Assembly (NCBI RefSeq): GCF_001434475.1
Contig: NZ_AZGF01000004.1
Span: 1 to 64,000, forward strand
Length of the DNA: 64,000 bases
Direction: 5' to 3'
Origin: Paucilactobacillus suebicus DSM 5007 = KCTC 3549
GTDB taxonomy: Bacteria > Bacillota > Bacilli > Lactobacillales > Lactobacillaceae
The notes under the pieces are model-generated. The model was not told where the DNA came from and searched no databases. It saw only the letters and a program-made list of their open reading frames with translations. A program made the translations under genes and the position numbers. Within the stretch, counting starts at the first letter, position 1, and each line of letters opens with the position of its first letter. This document shows, one piece after another, positions 19,900 through 60,626 of the stretch.

Positions 19900-20103
19900 A
19901 TGTATCTATGCGATGAGTCGAGAAGTCAGGCAATTCTTTGAATTGTTCCGCGCAAGCGGCTAGTGACATTTTGGCGTGGGACACATTTACCTACCGGATT
20001 ATGTAGGGTGTTCGGTTATCATACGTTGTGGAGCGTTCTTAACCTGAGATAATATCAATACACATAAAGACCCCGAGATCGAAAGATCTTGGGGCCTTTT
20101 TTT
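19900..20103 (+). ncRNA. Structured non-coding RNA candidate, 6S-like, with terminator
   Basis: No reading frame, GC-richer than its surroundings. A possible fold is one long interrupted rod: closing pairs ATGTAT/ATAC..AT and TCAGG (about 19927) with CCTGA (20043-20047). An open central region includes CCGC-GCAA-GCGG. The terminal arm pairs GACAC/GTGTT and CCTAC/GTAGG. A strong terminator follows: CCCCGAGATC-GAAA-GATCTTGGGG plus seven Ts. The closed stem, central bubble and terminal stem recall 6S RNA, but I could not confirm this from sequence motifs. Confidence 0.4.
20069..20103 (+). terminator. Intrinsic terminator of the ncRNA candidate
   Basis: Hairpin CCCCGAGATC / GATCTTGGGG with a GAAA tetraloop, then CC and a run of seven T. 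Confidence 0.85.
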
Positions 20104-37257: not shown

Positions 37258-37405
37258 AAAAAAGCGTCCCTCCGACAGCGGAGAGACGCACAATAAATAT
37301 TCACTAAATCGTGAAAAATAATGTCTATTTCTATCTCCCTTCGCTGGTACTAACCAGAGCAGGTTCTATGGGTATATCTCAGCCAAAAGGCACCCCAGAT
37401 GTAAT
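37258..37405 (-). promoter_or_regulatory. TPP riboswitch with intrinsic terminator
   Basis: On the minus strand the classic THI box is readable: GGGGTGCC, GGCTGAGATATACCC, GAACCTG and TCTGGTTAGTACCAGCG (aptamer about 37325-37400). It is followed by a terminator GCGTCTCTCCG-CTGT-CGGAGGGACGC plus six T (37258-37289). Thiamine pyrophosphate binding is expected to end transcription before ykoE. Confidence 0.96.
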
Positions 37406-37541
37406 ATGATTTACAGTTAATATAATTGATTTTCCGTGAAATTGCAATTAATTTTCAGTTAAATGGCAAGATTTTTGATTACTATTTAGATCGTCAATAG
37501 TATAATACCTTGGTGTGAACTTCAAAAAAGGATGAGATTTC

Positions 37542-54474: not shown

Positions 54475-55239
54475 TTACATTTCAAAATACTCGTATAAGT
54501 TTTCAGCCGTAAGTTTATCCTTTTCTTCACCACGTAAATCTGCCTTAATTGTACCGTTATTCAAAACAATTAAACGATTACCAAACTTTAAAGCATCTTC
54601 TAGATGATGGGTGATCATCAGAGCAGTTAGGTGATCTTGAGTGATTCTTTCGTTGGTCGCGTGTAAAAGATTATTGCTGGTTCTTGGGTCCAAGGCTGCG
54701 GTATGCTCATCTAGTAATATGATGTCAGGACGCTTTAGTGTTGCCATTAGGAAACTCAGTGCCTGGCGTTGCCCACCAGACAGATTACCGGTAGCTGTTG
54801 ACATCCGTTCTTCAAGACCGTTGTTCATGGTTGTAGCAATCTTAGTAAACTTATCTATGTGTTGCTTCATGTGACGAGGGACAAGACGACGCTTTTCACC
54901 ACGCTTTTCTGCCAGCAACATATTTTCTGCAACGGTCATCCGTGGTGCTGTGCCAAGCTTTGGATCTTGGAAAACACGGCTTAAAAAGTGAGTTCGGTCT
55001 TCCTCATTTTCGTGCGTGATATCTTCTCCGTGTAACAAGATTTGACCACTATCAGCAGATAGGTTGCCTCCAATGACATTAAATAATGTTGATTTGCCGG
55101 CGCCGTTAGATCCAACAATTGTGATGAAATCTCCTTCATTAATCGTCAAATTCAATTCCTTGAGAATGGTTGTTTCATTACTGGTACCCTTATTAACCAC
55201 AGTTACAATGTCTTTTAATTCTAAAATTGGCTTAGTCAT
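54475..55239 (-). CDS. TrpZ-like ABC transporter ATP-binding protein
   Basis: 254 residues. Walker A 'IVGSNGAGKSTLF', signature 'NLSGGQRQALSFLMATL', Walker B 'IILLDEHTAALD' with the unusual His after Glu that is normal in this LivF-like subgroup. It drives the permease encoded just upstream (8-nt overlap). The operon is TrpXYZ-like; the Trp-Trp leader upstream supports tryptophan as cargo. No intrinsic terminator is seen before the convergent hairpin 18. Confidence 0.85.
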   Translation of the reverse strand: MTKPILELKDIVTVVNKGTSNETTILKELNLTINEGDFITIVGSNGAGKSTLFNVIGGNLSADSGQILLHGEDITHENEEDRTHFLSRVFQDPKLGTAPRMTVAENMLLAEKRGEKRRLVPRHMKQHIDKFTKIATTMNNGLEERMSTATGNLSGGQRQALSFLMATLKRPDIILLDEHTAALDPRTSNNLLHATNERITQDHLTALMITHHLEDALKFGNRLIVLNNGTIKADLRGEEKDKLTAENLYEYFEM

Positions 55240-56131
55240 GAGACTTAACCTCCTTTTTAAATATGCGATCCAAATGAAGCGCCCGACGGAATTGTGGCAG
55301 CATCATGCAGATTGCAAGAACTAATGACGACAGTAAGTTGAGATCGTTGGCACTGAAACCTAATTGAAGGACAGCCAATAAGATCAATCGGTAAATGATA
55401 CTACCAAGAGTCACAGCAATTAGTCGTTGGTTTAGTGTTAATTCGCCAAAGGCAACTTCACCAATGATGATGGAAGCAAGAGCAATAACGATGGTACCGA
55501 TCCCCATGTTGATATCAGCGTAACCATTACTTTGCGCAACTAATGCTCCACAGATACCGACCATACCATTTGAAACCATTAGTCCCATAATTTTCATGTT
55601 GTCAGTATGAATCCCCAATGACTTAGCCATTTTTTCATTATCGCCAGTGGCAATGAATGCCTGTCCTAAATCAGTTTGAAGGAAGAATACCAGGATCAAA
55701 GTAATTACAGCAATAACCACCATTCCTAGAAATACTGAGTTAAAGTAGTTAGGCATTGCTTCAAAAAACTTTGAACTTAATAGTGTTTTGTGACCGAGTA
55801 ATGACGTGTTTGATTTACCCATAATTTCTAGGTTCACTGAGTAGGCTGCCGTCATTACCAGAATTCCGGCTAATAAAATATCGATTTTACCCTTGGTGTA
55901 TAGCAAACCAGTAACTAATCCGGCCGCCATGCCCGCAAGAAAGGCAAATAACGTGGCGGTCATCGGTGAATAGCCATGAACAATGGCGGTGACCGCTACT
56001 GCGGCACCCATTGGAAAGGTTCCTTCGACCGTCATATCAGCAATGTTTAAAATTCTAAATGTTAAAAATAGTCCCAGGCCTAAGATTGCCCATAGGAGGC
56101 CTTGACCGATTGCGGAAACAATTAAGCTCAT
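55232..56131 (-). CDS. TrpY-like ABC transporter permease
   Basis: 299 residues with about eight or nine membrane helices, branched-chain permease (BPD_transp_2) type: 'FRILNIADMTVEGTFPMGAAVAVTAIV' at the start and 'GTIVIALASIIIGEVAFG' late. The start overlaps the binding-protein stop (TAATG). It forms a homodimeric channel with the ATPase. Confidence 0.87.
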   Translation of the reverse strand: MSLIVSAIGQGLLWAILGLGLFLTFRILNIADMTVEGTFPMGAAVAVTAIVHGYSPMTATLFAFLAGMAAGLVTGLLYTKGKIDILLAGILVMTAAYSVNLEIMGKSNTSLLGHKTLLSSKFFEAMPNYFNSVFLGMVVIAVITLILVFFLQTDLGQAFIATGDNEKMAKSLGIHTDNMKIMGLMVSNGMVGICGALVAQSNGYADINMGIGTIVIALASIIIGEVAFGELTLNQRLIAVTLGSIIYRLILLAVLQLGFSANDLNLLSSLVLAICMMLPQFRRALHLDRIFKKEVKSHD

Positions 56132-57123
56132 TATTTGTAGACCTCCCCGTTTGCTTTAGCGTCTTTCAAGAACTTAGCTGGTACATGTAAGCCTAATTTT
56201 TTAGCCTGTTTCAAGTTCAAAGTAGGTTCACCATTTTTGATGTACTTAACAGGTGTTGTGGCCGTTTTCTTTTTGCCTTTAAGAATTTGACCAGCTAGCT
56301 TCCCACCTTCAATACCAAGTTTGTATTGGTTGATACTATAGGTAGCAACTCCACCATCCTTAACCATTGTGTCAACAGCAGGGAAGACTGGCTTCTTAGC
56401 AGCATCGGCATTGGCGACTAATGTACTCATTGCGCCGGCAATTGTATTATCTGTTGGCACGAAAATTGCATCACATTGTGAGACAGCTTCTTGAGAAACC
56501 TGGTTCAAGTCGTTACTGTTAGAAATTGAATATGACTTTACATTGACGTGTTCTTTTTTGCAAAGTGCAACAAATAATCTGTGCTCAGTGGTGGCTGAAC
56601 TGTCACTCGAAGTGTAAATGATACCTAACGTCTTCATATGTGGCATAAATTCCTTAATTAACTTAAGATCCCGTGCCAGTGGTGCTTGATCAGACACACC
56701 AGTGATGTTTCCACCAGGCTTCTTATTATTCTTAACTAAACCGGCTCCGTGTGGATCTGTAACAGCACCAAGTACGATTGGAATCTTAGTTGTGGCGTTT
56801 GCTAAAGCCTGAGAAGCGGGGGTAGTGATACCAACCAGCACATCATTATCCTCATTAACCAATTTTGAGGCCATGGTTTTTAGATTACTTTGATCTCCCT
56901 GTGCGTTTTGGTAGTCAACCTTAACGTTCTTGCCTTCATGATATCCTTCGTCAGCAAGTCCCTTAATAACCCCTTTGTGAATCTGGTCTAACGCCGGTTG
57001 ATGCATTAGTGTTAAAATCCCAACGTGTGGGGTTTTAGTTTTAGTGGTACCGCCGCCTTCCATAAAATACGCGAATCCCAAAAATACCAATAGAATCGCG
57101 ATGAACGTGTACATTCGTTTCAT
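56131..57123 (-). CDS. TrpX-like ABC transporter substrate-binding protein
   Basis: 330 residues. An N-terminal hydrophobic helix (about 4-20) with no lipobox acts as membrane anchor. The domain begins 'HVGILTLMHQPALDQIHKGVIKGLADEGY' and includes 'LVGITTPASQALANATTKIPIVLGAVTDPHGAGLV', the ABC_sub_bind family of streptococcal TrpX. Binding of tryptophan is inferred from family and from the WW leader peptide. First gene of the operon. Confidence 0.87.
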   Translation of the reverse strand: MKRMYTFIAILLVFLGFAYFMEGGGTTKTKTPHVGILTLMHQPALDQIHKGVIKGLADEGYHEGKNVKVDYQNAQGDQSNLKTMASKLVNEDNDVLVGITTPASQALANATTKIPIVLGAVTDPHGAGLVKNNKKPGGNITGVSDQAPLARDLKLIKEFMPHMKTLGIIYTSSDSSATTEHRLFVALCKKEHVNVKSYSISNSNDLNQVSQEAVSQCDAIFVPTDNTIAGAMSTLVANADAAKKPVFPAVDTMVKDGGVATYSINQYKLGIEGGKLAGQILKGKKKTATTPVKYIKNGEPTLNLKQAKKLGLHVPAKFLKDAKANGEVYK

Positions 57124-57159
57124 CCTTTTTCACCTCGTAGAAATAATTGCTAATCCCAA

Positions 57160-57196
57160 AAAATAAAGGAAGCCTCATGAGGCTTCCTTTATTTCA
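57160..57196 (-). terminator. Second leader terminator before trpX
   Basis: A palindrome with arms AAATAAAGGAAGCCTC / GAGGCTTCCTTTATTT (AT as loop centre) followed on the minus strand by a T-rich run. It stands between the attenuator and the trpX start, so the operon must read through it. Confidence 0.75.
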
Positions 57197-57199
57197 AAG

Positions 57200-57303
57200 A
57201 AAAAAGCCTGCATGAGAGAATCCATGCAGACTAAAGTAAGCTAAAGTCAGCACAGATACAATCTGAAACATCAGGTTGTATCCGCGATGAGTACACAACC
57301 TGA
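57200..57303 (-). promoter_or_regulatory. Trp attenuator: alternative hairpins and terminator
   Basis: On the transcript, in order: segment 1 TCAGGTTGT (57303-57295) pairs with segment 2 ACAACCTGA (57279-57271). Segment 2 with its upstream bases can instead pair with segment 3 TCAGATTGTATCTG (one mismatch in 14). ATCTGTGCTGACT (57257-57245) can pair with AGTCTGCATGGAT (57232-57220) at 12 of 13 positions, which excludes the terminator AGTCTGCATG / CATGCAGGCT plus T6 (57232-57200). This is a complete 1:2, 2:3, 3:4, 4:5 attenuator. Confidence 0.8.
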
Positions 57304-57304
57304 A

Positions 57305-57352
57305 TTACCGACTTTGCCACCAAATATTCAGTTGTTGTGTTGGATAACTCAT
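57305..57352 (-). CDS. Trp-Trp leader peptide of the trpXYZ-like operon
   Basis: Fifteen codons, MSYPTQQLNIWWQSR, with an AGGAGA site 7-8 nt before the ATG. Tandem Trp codons at positions 11-12 lie just upstream of attenuator segment 1, which starts 1 nt after the stop. A ribosome waiting for tryptophan would leave segment 1 free; one reaching the stop would cover it. Confidence 0.85.
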   Translation of the reverse strand: MSYPTQQLNIWWQSR

Positions 57353-57387
57353 CTGACCATTCTCCTATGTCGTCTTAATGATTTTTA

Positions 57388-57416
57388 GTATAAGGAAAGT
57401 CAGAAACCTTGTCAAC
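57388..57416 (-). promoter_or_regulatory. Promoter of the trpXYZ-like operon
   Basis: Minus strand TTGACA (57416-57411), 17 nt, TATACT (57393-57388): near-consensus, as expected when control is by attenuation. The region 57417-57619 is AT-rich and shows no other feature. Confidence 0.85.
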
Positions 57417-57619
57417 GCGTTTTTAAGATTTACTCAATAGATGAATCATAAAAACAATAAATATAAAAAAATTATATAAATTATTTTATATACTTTAGAA
57501 TACTGACAAATAAAGCCTCTAAGTGGATAATTCACAGGATGAGGAATATTATAAAAATAATTATGATAATTAGTGCAAAACATTATCAGTGCTTTGGTGG
57601 CCAGTGATTAGGGTGATTT

Positions 57620-57647
57620 TTGAAAATTTTAGATAGCTGTGTACATT
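57620..57647 (+). promoter_or_regulatory. Candidate serC promoter
   Basis: TTGAAA (57620-57625), 16 nt, TACATT (57642-57647), leaving a leader of about 50 nt without riboswitch-like structure. Confidence 0.4.
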
Positions 57648-57704
57648 GCAATCAATTTTATTAACTGTAAGATGATAATCAAATTGAAAACGGAGGAATT
57701 TAAA

Positions 57705-60037: not shown

Positions 60038-60312
60038 AATGAATTGATGAACGGCGTGCTAATTAGCCGGTGGAGTAATGGTAAGCGAACCTTACAGCAA
60101 GCATCGTTAATGGGAAGATGCAGGTTCCTTATTATGAAAGATTGACTAGAGCGCTCATCCTTTTCGAGGGATGATGGGCAGACACCCAATATAATGTCGG
60201 GGTATTAATAGTACCTGTTGAGATGGTATATGTGAGTATGCCATAAATTAAGGTGGTAACACGCGAAAGCGTCCTTGTTGCAGACAATGTTCTGTAGCAA
60301 GGACGCTTTTTT
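60038..60312 (+). promoter_or_regulatory. T-box riboswitch
   Basis: The T-box sequence AAGGTGGTAACACGCG (60250-60265) precedes the terminator GCGTCCTTG (60269-60277) / CAAGGACGC (60298-60306) plus T6. Upstream are several stem-loops (AACG..TGCT/AGCA..CGTT; TCATCC/GGGATGA) fitting Stem I-III. The bulge UGGU pairs with ...ACCA, so the sensed tRNA should have an A discriminator, which argues against Ser, Trp and His. I cannot place the specifier codon securely; ATC (Ile) or ATG (Met) are candidates. Confidence 0.9.
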
Positions 60313-60578: not shown

Positions 60579-60626
60579 ATAAATTGTGGGTAGTTGGTTA
60601 TGGTTTTGATGAAAGGTAGGGGTTAT

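Follow-up and report, generated by a model that had tools for sequence, protein, structure and literature searches.

A leader reading frame with tandem tryptophan codons ahead of trpX in Paucilactobacillus suebicus: a very likely ribosome-mediated attenuator related to the trpB motif RNA (RF04312)

The RNA family RF04312, known as the trpB motif or SRC-39-1, was published in 2024 as an untested riboswitch candidate (Narunsky et al., PMC11109978), and over 900 members have been reported (PMC11109978). Its authors ranked it as a strong riboswitch candidate, though they left a protein factor or a classic attenuator possible (PMC11109978). The family as described shares a P1 hairpin, a linker and a terminator with the element studied here, lies upstream of an ABC transporter or trpB as the present elements do, and has the right arm of P1 proposed as the antiterminator, which is also our assignment (PMC11109978). 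The two accounts differ in that the published one is of a riboswitch candidate with unknown ligand, whereas we propose an attenuator that reads codons (PMC11109978). The sections of that paper that bear on the question are without a leader ORF, the segments we call A, B and L, a second terminator or codon swaps (PMC11109978). In the open-access literature that we searched, the trpB motif or RF04312 appears only in this paper, and other printed leader attenuators of lactic acid bacteria may have been missed.

The enteric his and trp attenuators, including the six-segment his leader, have a leader peptide with regulatory codons, and their RNA chooses between the pairings A:B, C:D, E:F and the pairings B:C, D:E. 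The element described here has the same kind of leader and the same alternative pairing scheme, but differs in an extra pairing (L:D), in a second, putatively coupled terminator and in having an importer as its target. Leader-peptide attenuation has also been reported earlier in Firmicutes, for the His leader peptides of hisZ and hisS paralogs in bacilli (PMC2965389) and for a leucine-rich leader in S. aureus (PMC5794164). The statement in a first-pass annotation of the locus that such attenuation is best known from enteric bacteria and actinobacteria needs correcting in this respect. The bacilli His leaders resemble our element because a stretch of regulatory codons replaces a T-box in a Firmicute, though the genes and organisms are others and specificity swaps are not described in the sections that bear on this (PMC2965389). 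A noncoding RNA motif has been re-read as an upstream-ORF attenuator before, as is done here, namely the ilvB-II motif; it differs in belonging to Corynebacterium, in using branched-chain codons and in having reporter assays (PMC10272879). The trpXYZ operon of S. suis encodes the same importer family and is induced in Trp limitation by transcription attenuation, but there the tRNA is bound directly by a T-box and no leader peptide is involved (PMC9382623).

The window, i.e., the whole stretch of 64,000 nucleotides of P. suebicus DNA that was analysed, carries the importer operon on its minus strand. TrpX (56131..57123) is a tryptophan ABC transporter substrate-binding protein, since it passes the NCBIfam equivalog NF041285 with 478 bits against a cut-off of 390. 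It is followed by an ABC permease (55232..56131, PF02653) and an ABC ATPase (54475..55239, PF00005). Upstream on the same strand there is a sigma-70 type promoter (TTGACA-17-TATACT, 57387..57415) with 11 of 12 consensus matches, then a Shine-Dalgarno sequence (AGGAG, 57362..57366) and a leader ORF of 15 codons, MSYPTQQLNIWWQSR, which runs from the ATG at 57352 to the TAA at 57305 (57305..57352); the last two were read from the sequence. Codons 11 and 12 (W11 and W12, 57317..57322) are tandem Trp codons, and Trp is conserved in relatives. A terminator with a U tract was called at 57205..57232 and is referred to as terminator 1. The leader RNA folds at -76 kcal/mol, compared with -49.5 (sd 4.6) in 200 shuffles (z = -5.8). 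The first-pass annotation had claimed the promoter, the Shine-Dalgarno sequence, the 15-codon ORF with tandem Trp and the terminator, all of which held at these places on the minus strand, and its TrpX assignment is supported by the equivalog match. It did not mention segments A or L, a second terminator or any link with RF04312.

This link rests on a match of RF04312 to 57288-57194 (57194..57288, minus strand) over the whole model, with 48.5 bits and E 4.2e-6. The gathering score is 59, and at gathering level Rfam found no family for the window leader. The window element is thus a relative of RF04312 and not a filed member, though it meets the architecture of the family, i.e., a P1 hairpin and terminator ahead of amino-acid transport genes. 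We searched 301 genomes of the family Lactobacillaceae (E <= 0.01), 395 of the order (E <= 5e-4) and 348 of the phylum (E <= 1e-4). Only nine of the 301 family genomes pass the RF04312 cut-off, and 153 match at E <= 0.01; in the order, 196 of 395 genomes match at E <= 5e-4. Among the 348 phylum genomes there were two with a match, the window's own and one of the same order, so nothing was seen beyond Lactobacillales in this set, nor were the reported members from Fusobacteria. Other Rfam families gave no convincing match to the window leader. A T-box was considered and rejected, since none of the 24 matches that 57100-57700 gives up to E 10 is to RF00230.

The leader can be divided into segments, all on the minus strand, that compete for each other. 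Segment A (57334..57353) is the start of the leader ORF and pairs with B (57286..57304), which lies after the leader stop codon and can pair with A or C. Segment C (57271..57285) is the 5' arm of P1, in agreement with P1 of RF04312. Segment D (57243..57266) is the extended 3' arm of P1, with C, L or E as partner, where L (57305..57318) is the end of the leader ORF and E (57218..57235) is the 5' arm of terminator 1. Segment F (57196..57214) comprises the 3' arm of terminator 1 with the U tract and pairs with E or with H. Terminator 2 (57161..57194) is a perfect inverted repeat followed by a T tract, read from the sequence, with arms H (57194-57179) and I (57174-57161). For the window, duplex energies (kcal/mol) come to -14.5 for A:B, -16.1 for B:C, -17.0 for C:D, -11.5 for L:D, -14.4 for D:E, -16.2 for E:F, -11.3 for F:H and -20.1 for H:I.

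In the partner-swap test, segments A, B, C, L, D, E and F were cut at each locus and duplex energies within a locus were compared with those between loci. The sample was 90 non-redundant loci (80% redundancy cut), and the p values are not corrected for further kinship. All six pairings are stronger when matched: A:B (p=3e-4), B:C (1.6e-12), C:D (8.7e-17), L:D (1.3e-12), D:E (1.9e-12) and E:F (8.7e-17; n=90 throughout). Eleven of twelve other segment combinations were not stronger when matched in this test, the remaining one being C:F (p=0.015). Eleven further combinations were tested, where L:D0 (1.9e-4) and D0:E (1e-7) restate known pairs, G:E gave 0.042, R:B 0.064 and the rest exceeded 0.2. 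The partner-swap tests thus support an off state of A:B, C:D and E:F, an on state of B:C and D:E, and a brake, L:D. The end of the leader, C and E are all able to pair with D, and the pairing L:D would explain why the end of the leader ORF is conserved. A pairing R:G between the ribosome-binding region of the leader and a stretch after D reached p=1.6e-3 overall and was left out of the main model. The R:G complementarity is strong in a subset of loci only, such as L154, L143 and L013, and there it may shut the leader ORF once the RNA is made.

We consider it very likely that the element is a ribosome-mediated transcription attenuator that senses charged tRNA-Trp and turns the trpX operon on in Trp shortage, though there are no expression data. 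In the proposed mechanism, RNA polymerase would start near 57380 and a ribosome would start on the 15-codon ORF. When charged tRNA-Trp is short, the ribosome would wait at the two Trp codons and cover most of A and L, leaving B free. B would then pair with C, so that D, barred from C, would pair with E and terminator E:F would not form. The freed F may in turn pair with H and disarm terminator 2 (H:I) as well. When charged tRNA-Trp is plentiful, the ribosome would reach the stop codon and cover B; C:D would form, E:F would terminate, and polymerase leaking past terminator 1 would meet H:I. Without translation, A:B and L:D would hold the off state. What the comparison of loci shows is the ORF, its codons, the codon swaps and the pairings. 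How the switch proceeds in time, in which direction it responds, how it stands without translation and whether F:H disarms terminator 2 are matters of inference, and the response to starvation has not been measured.

To relate pairing to ribosome position, RNA was folded up to C with a ribosome footprint of 31 nt (an assumed size) masked. In the window, a ribosome on W11 or W12 lets B:C form, with 11.5 bp expected. With the ribosome at the stop codon or absent, B:C does not form, and without a ribosome A:B takes over. Over 184 loci folded in the same way, B:C is favoured on Trp over stop in 84-85% and the reverse holds in 3%. The first-pass annotation had proposed that a Trp-starved ribosome allows a pairing 1:2; it gave no coordinates for its segments, and we took its segment 1 as B and 1:2 as B:C. 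This is supported by the folding up to C, with the direction of the response still inferred. The footprint test is a check of geometry and is partly built in, since a ribosome at the stop codon must cover B. One locus with a mixed aromatic leader (YYWF, L076) has merely 2 bp of B:C in every state except stop. Without a ribosome, B:C still averages 6.6 bp over the 184 loci folded up to C, and in the 20 Tyr/Phe elements that were folded it is as large, or nearly as large, without a ribosome as with a stalled one. Because B:C persists without a ribosome, the off state of untranslated RNA rests on L:D. It is likely that L:D does keep such RNA off, though this is inferred and L:D has not been shown to win.

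Folding at equilibrium does not by itself reproduce the switch in the window. There, the equilibrium fold up to E keeps C:D in every ribosome state, and D:E amounts to only 0.4-1.2 bp and is lowest on the first Trp. Since C:D is kept at equilibrium, the switch would have to be kinetic, and the model needs B:C to form before D is made. Averaged over the 184 loci folded up to E, D:E has 4.7 bp when the ribosome sits on the first Trp, compared with 2.3 when it is at the stop and 3.0 when it is absent; in 48% of the loci D:E on Trp exceeds D:E at the stop, and in 8% it falls short of it. Attenuation calls for mutually exclusive hairpins placed so that the position of the ribosome decides between them. 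The pairings and the geometry agree with this, though equilibrium folding does not show the switch in the window and shows it only in part at other loci.

Evidence for codon reading comes from the leader ORFs of relatives. We read 200 loci: 112 of the family, made up of the best-scoring matches together with L002 and the window, and 88 that belong to the order but not to the family. They are part of all RF04312 matches and were drawn from the better-scoring end. When the leader is chosen by Shine-Dalgarno sequence and start codon only, Trp is present at 183 of the 200, compared with a mean of 28.3 (max 40) per 200 after shuffling and 85 of 400 control positions (any Trp, no score limit). Under a strict criterion, where the best short ORF must score at least 6 including an ATG bonus and hold Trp in its last nine residues, 168 of 200 pass; dinucleotide shuffling, repeated 30 times, gave a mean of 2.2 (max 7) per 200, and control positions of the same loci gave 3 of 400. 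Sorted by leader type, the loci comprise 181 Trp, 5 Tyr, 3 Phe, 2 YYWF, 1 His, 1 Ser-rich and 1 ambiguous, and 6 have none. For this tally two loci were assigned by eye (L187, L226), two were set to a Trp ORF that had been passed over by score (L156, L157), and L113 was counted as a miss although a chance ORF there holds Trp. The RF04312 hits counted as misses for want of a credible leader are L101, L110, L113, L115, L116 and L223. One of the 181 Trp loci (L017) is a decayed leader copy with a weak Shine-Dalgarno sequence and a TTG start. An Arg leader was considered at L112 (IRLRSQ, before an SBP-permease operon beside an argininosuccinate synthase gene) and was not counted, being ambiguous.

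The first-pass annotation would have been refuted by orthologous leaders without conserved Trp codons, which is not borne out, as Trp is kept in those 181 loci. The tandem Trp that it described for the window is uncommon among relatives. Only 8 of the 179 Trp leaders that were counted by script have WW; two Trp with no more than three residues between them occur in 98 and a single Trp in 80. Trp leaders precede trpB at eight family loci (by sequence cluster) and three order loci (by eye), and they also precede oligopeptide-binding proteins (L010, L092, L182). Two observations on other operons may be added. The top RF04312 match of the family sample (L008 in G049, 86.6 bits) lies upstream of a reverse transcriptase ORF (PF00078); an intron or another insertion may separate this leader from its operon. 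At L368 and L369 the leader ends in WQVWYIS or WQAWYIL and precedes an unnamed protein, with an M20-type peptidase in L368; the protein behind this type of leader had no Pfam or NCBIfam match where tested (L075) and is possibly a Trp-linked transporter.

On the same scaffold, other codons replace Trp. A covariance model, R1, was built from 56 elements, nine of them non-Trp, and was meant to reach non-Trp elements; run on 56 chosen genomes, it has matches in 38. In eleven stretches from eleven genomes (L261, L262, L263, L265, L266, L268, L269, L271, L272, L276 and L280), neighbouring TrpX-like paralogs have one Tyr and one Phe leader, with the elements about 1.3-1.9 kb apart; two of the genomes (G016, G156) are nearly the same. 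The Tyr leaders end in YYYGYYG or YYYGYFG, and the Phe leaders in FFAGFFG, FFFGFFG or similar. Some of these genomes have a separate Trp-leader copy (G016, G056, G231 and G178, in G178 beside a TrpX hit), and TrpX at those copies is closer to the window protein, with 48-58% identity where computed. The TrpX cut-off of 390 bits is not reached by the three Tyr/Phe-leader proteins that were tested (308, 320 and 350 bits). A quick tree was made of TrpX-like proteins (102 rows, 100 of them different), where the Tyr/Phe-leader rows (23, with 21 different) group in a single clade apart from the Trp-leader rows (SH-aLRT 100). Neither the Tyr nor the Phe leaders were recovered as a clade of their own in this tree, and single origins are not ruled out.

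Three further leader types were read. A YYWF leader precedes transketolase, DAHP synthase, aroB and aroD. An HHHLHR leader precedes a permease like a basic amino acid antiporter, which passes the cut-off of subfamily TIGR00905 but not that of the arginine-ornithine equivalog, and a gene whose protein has the His racemase CntK as its sole NCBIfam match (85 bits against a cut-off of 300). Ser-rich leaders stand before serC (L090/L244 and L260), and a phosphoglycerate dehydrogenase-like gene also lies behind a Ser-rich leader. Thus, the codons fit the amino acid of the operon for Trp with trpX and trpB, for the mixed aromatic leader with the aro genes and for His with the permease and racemase-like gene. 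For Ser we regard the case as no more than possible; the codons fit serC, though the geometry is doubtful and L090 fails the footprint test.

These swaps bear on two rival explanations. The first is that RF04312 is a small-molecule riboswitch, with P1 as the aptamer for an amino acid and no role for the ORF. In its favour, P1 and the terminator are conserved, and the authors' ranking has been given above. Against it, an ORF with a Shine-Dalgarno sequence is present in nearly all loci read and its codons track the downstream gene; the pairing of P1 is kept while its sequence varies, and D is complementary to L and E too; and only 3 of 164 columns are invariant in 56 sequences, though this alone does not exclude a conserved ligand pocket. 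We consider this rival very unlikely, though there are no binding data. The codon swaps, together with the conservation of Trp, make it most likely that the element reads codons via ribosomes and does not bind a ligand. The second rival is an arrest peptide of the TnaC kind, in which the nascent peptide with free Trp stalls the ribosome, here altering the folding. In its favour, 73 of 89 non-redundant Trp leaders have Gln right after the first C-terminal Trp, and the next residue is mostly Ser, Asn or Thr. Against it, leaders with Tyr, Phe or His codons are built on the same scaffold yet encode other peptides, and L:D pairing could account for the conserved end of the ORF. This rival is also very improbable, and we favor the codon-reading attenuator. 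The Gln codon after the first Trp is always CAA (73 of 73), where codon bias or a constraint on the RNA is possible, and some of the conservation may lie at the RNA level.

A second hairpin with a T tract within 75 nt occurs at 132 of 194 loci. The family accounts for 75 of these (107 loci) and the other families of the order for 57 (87 loci), whereas base shuffling leaves only 3 of 194. The duplex of H, the 5' arm of terminator 2, with F and its U tract has -12.1 when matched and -7.8 when mismatched (p=3.4e-11, n=58). We infer that read-through at terminator 1 frees F to disarm terminator 2. Alternatively, terminator 2 is independent and F:H is a by-product of its having arisen as a copy of terminator 1, which would leave the reading of Trp unaffected. 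This is favoured by the complementarity of both E and H to F and by a weakly matched E:I (p=4.4e-3). Against it, F:H is much stronger than E:I, a pairing that mere copying should have preserved as well (-12.1 vs -7.4, p=2.7e-10, n=58), and remains at -9.7 without the U tract (p=5.6e-5), and an independent second terminator would hamper the on state. We lean slightly against independence and prefer the coupled arrangement.

A bolder reading follows the proposal that the same scaffold with other codons would serve other amino acids in relatives. We think it likely, as one joint claim, that RF04312 is a codon-programmable attenuator scaffold of Lactobacillales, re-aimed at Trp, Tyr, Phe, mixed aromatic amino acids, His and perhaps Ser, with two terminators coupled like dominoes in about two thirds of the loci read. 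If true, the neighbouring TrpX-like paralogs with Tyr and Phe leaders become predicted tyrosine and phenylalanine importers. For RF04312, so far a riboswitch candidate that lacked a ligand, the proposal puts forward a mechanism, and it points experimenters to translation, not ligands. It also suggests that attenuation by leader peptides is widespread in an order for which T-boxes are the more familiar device. The elements form a set of natural variants in which a single scaffold carries different specificities, and they yield substrate predictions for importer paralogs.

There is counter-evidence in the genus itself, where five of seven Paucilactobacillus genomes have the element and two (G003, G004) have trpX without it. 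In these two (L006, L007), trpX lies behind a promoter-like sequence by eye. For the wider family of TrpX proteins, contigs were scanned and the best 80 loci of a larger number were examined. At E <= 0.01, R1 detects 42 of the 80, with 43 matches in all, one being on the reverse strand of L312. Named carriers with leaders include Ligilactobacillus salivarius (L301), Enterococcus rivorum (L310) and Streptococcus hyovaginalis (L331). A WWRR leader without an R1 match is found in Weissella paramesenteroides (L307), Weissella viridescens (L311) and Fructobacillus ficulneus (L317). Of the 80 loci, 20 were scanned with Rfam, and four of these have a T-box that passes the cut-off: two Streptococcus, Breznakia and Desulfosporosinus. 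Two genomes labelled Clostridia were also seen. In Sedimentibacter sp. SX930 (L320, L330) the R1 matches resemble those of Trichococcus. Faecalicatena absiana YH-C36a (L292) has the leader MNFKLSMIQSWWQFR and a TrpX 63% identical, without an R1 match. These three loci look like those of Lactobacillales and, by their labels, do not fit a restriction to Lactobacillales; possibly the records are mislabelled or mixed, which is a guess.

R1 finds one element in the window's own genome at E <= 0.01. The genes for Trp synthesis lie on another contig and encode a PRAI protein, a trpE-like protein (387 bits to its best match, trpE_most, whose cut-off it does not reach), a trpG-family protein, a glycosyl transferase 3 protein and a PALP protein. 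Between the trpG-like gene and the next there is a T-box-like match of 60 bits (cut-off 93), and weaker ones precede the trpE-like gene. Because of these matches, one cell may use a T-box for Trp synthesis and the ribosome for import. The window itself has a further T-box-like element on the plus strand at 60060-60279 (59.8 bits, cut-off 93), after serA; no ORF of at least 80 aa lies right behind it, and the next listed plus-strand ORF starts at 60594 and is nucleoside diphosphate kinase-like by eye. Two other RNAs in the window are above gathering, a TPP riboswitch at 37319-37407 on the minus strand and a Ref68 (Lacto-3) RNA at 19909-20036 on the plus strand.
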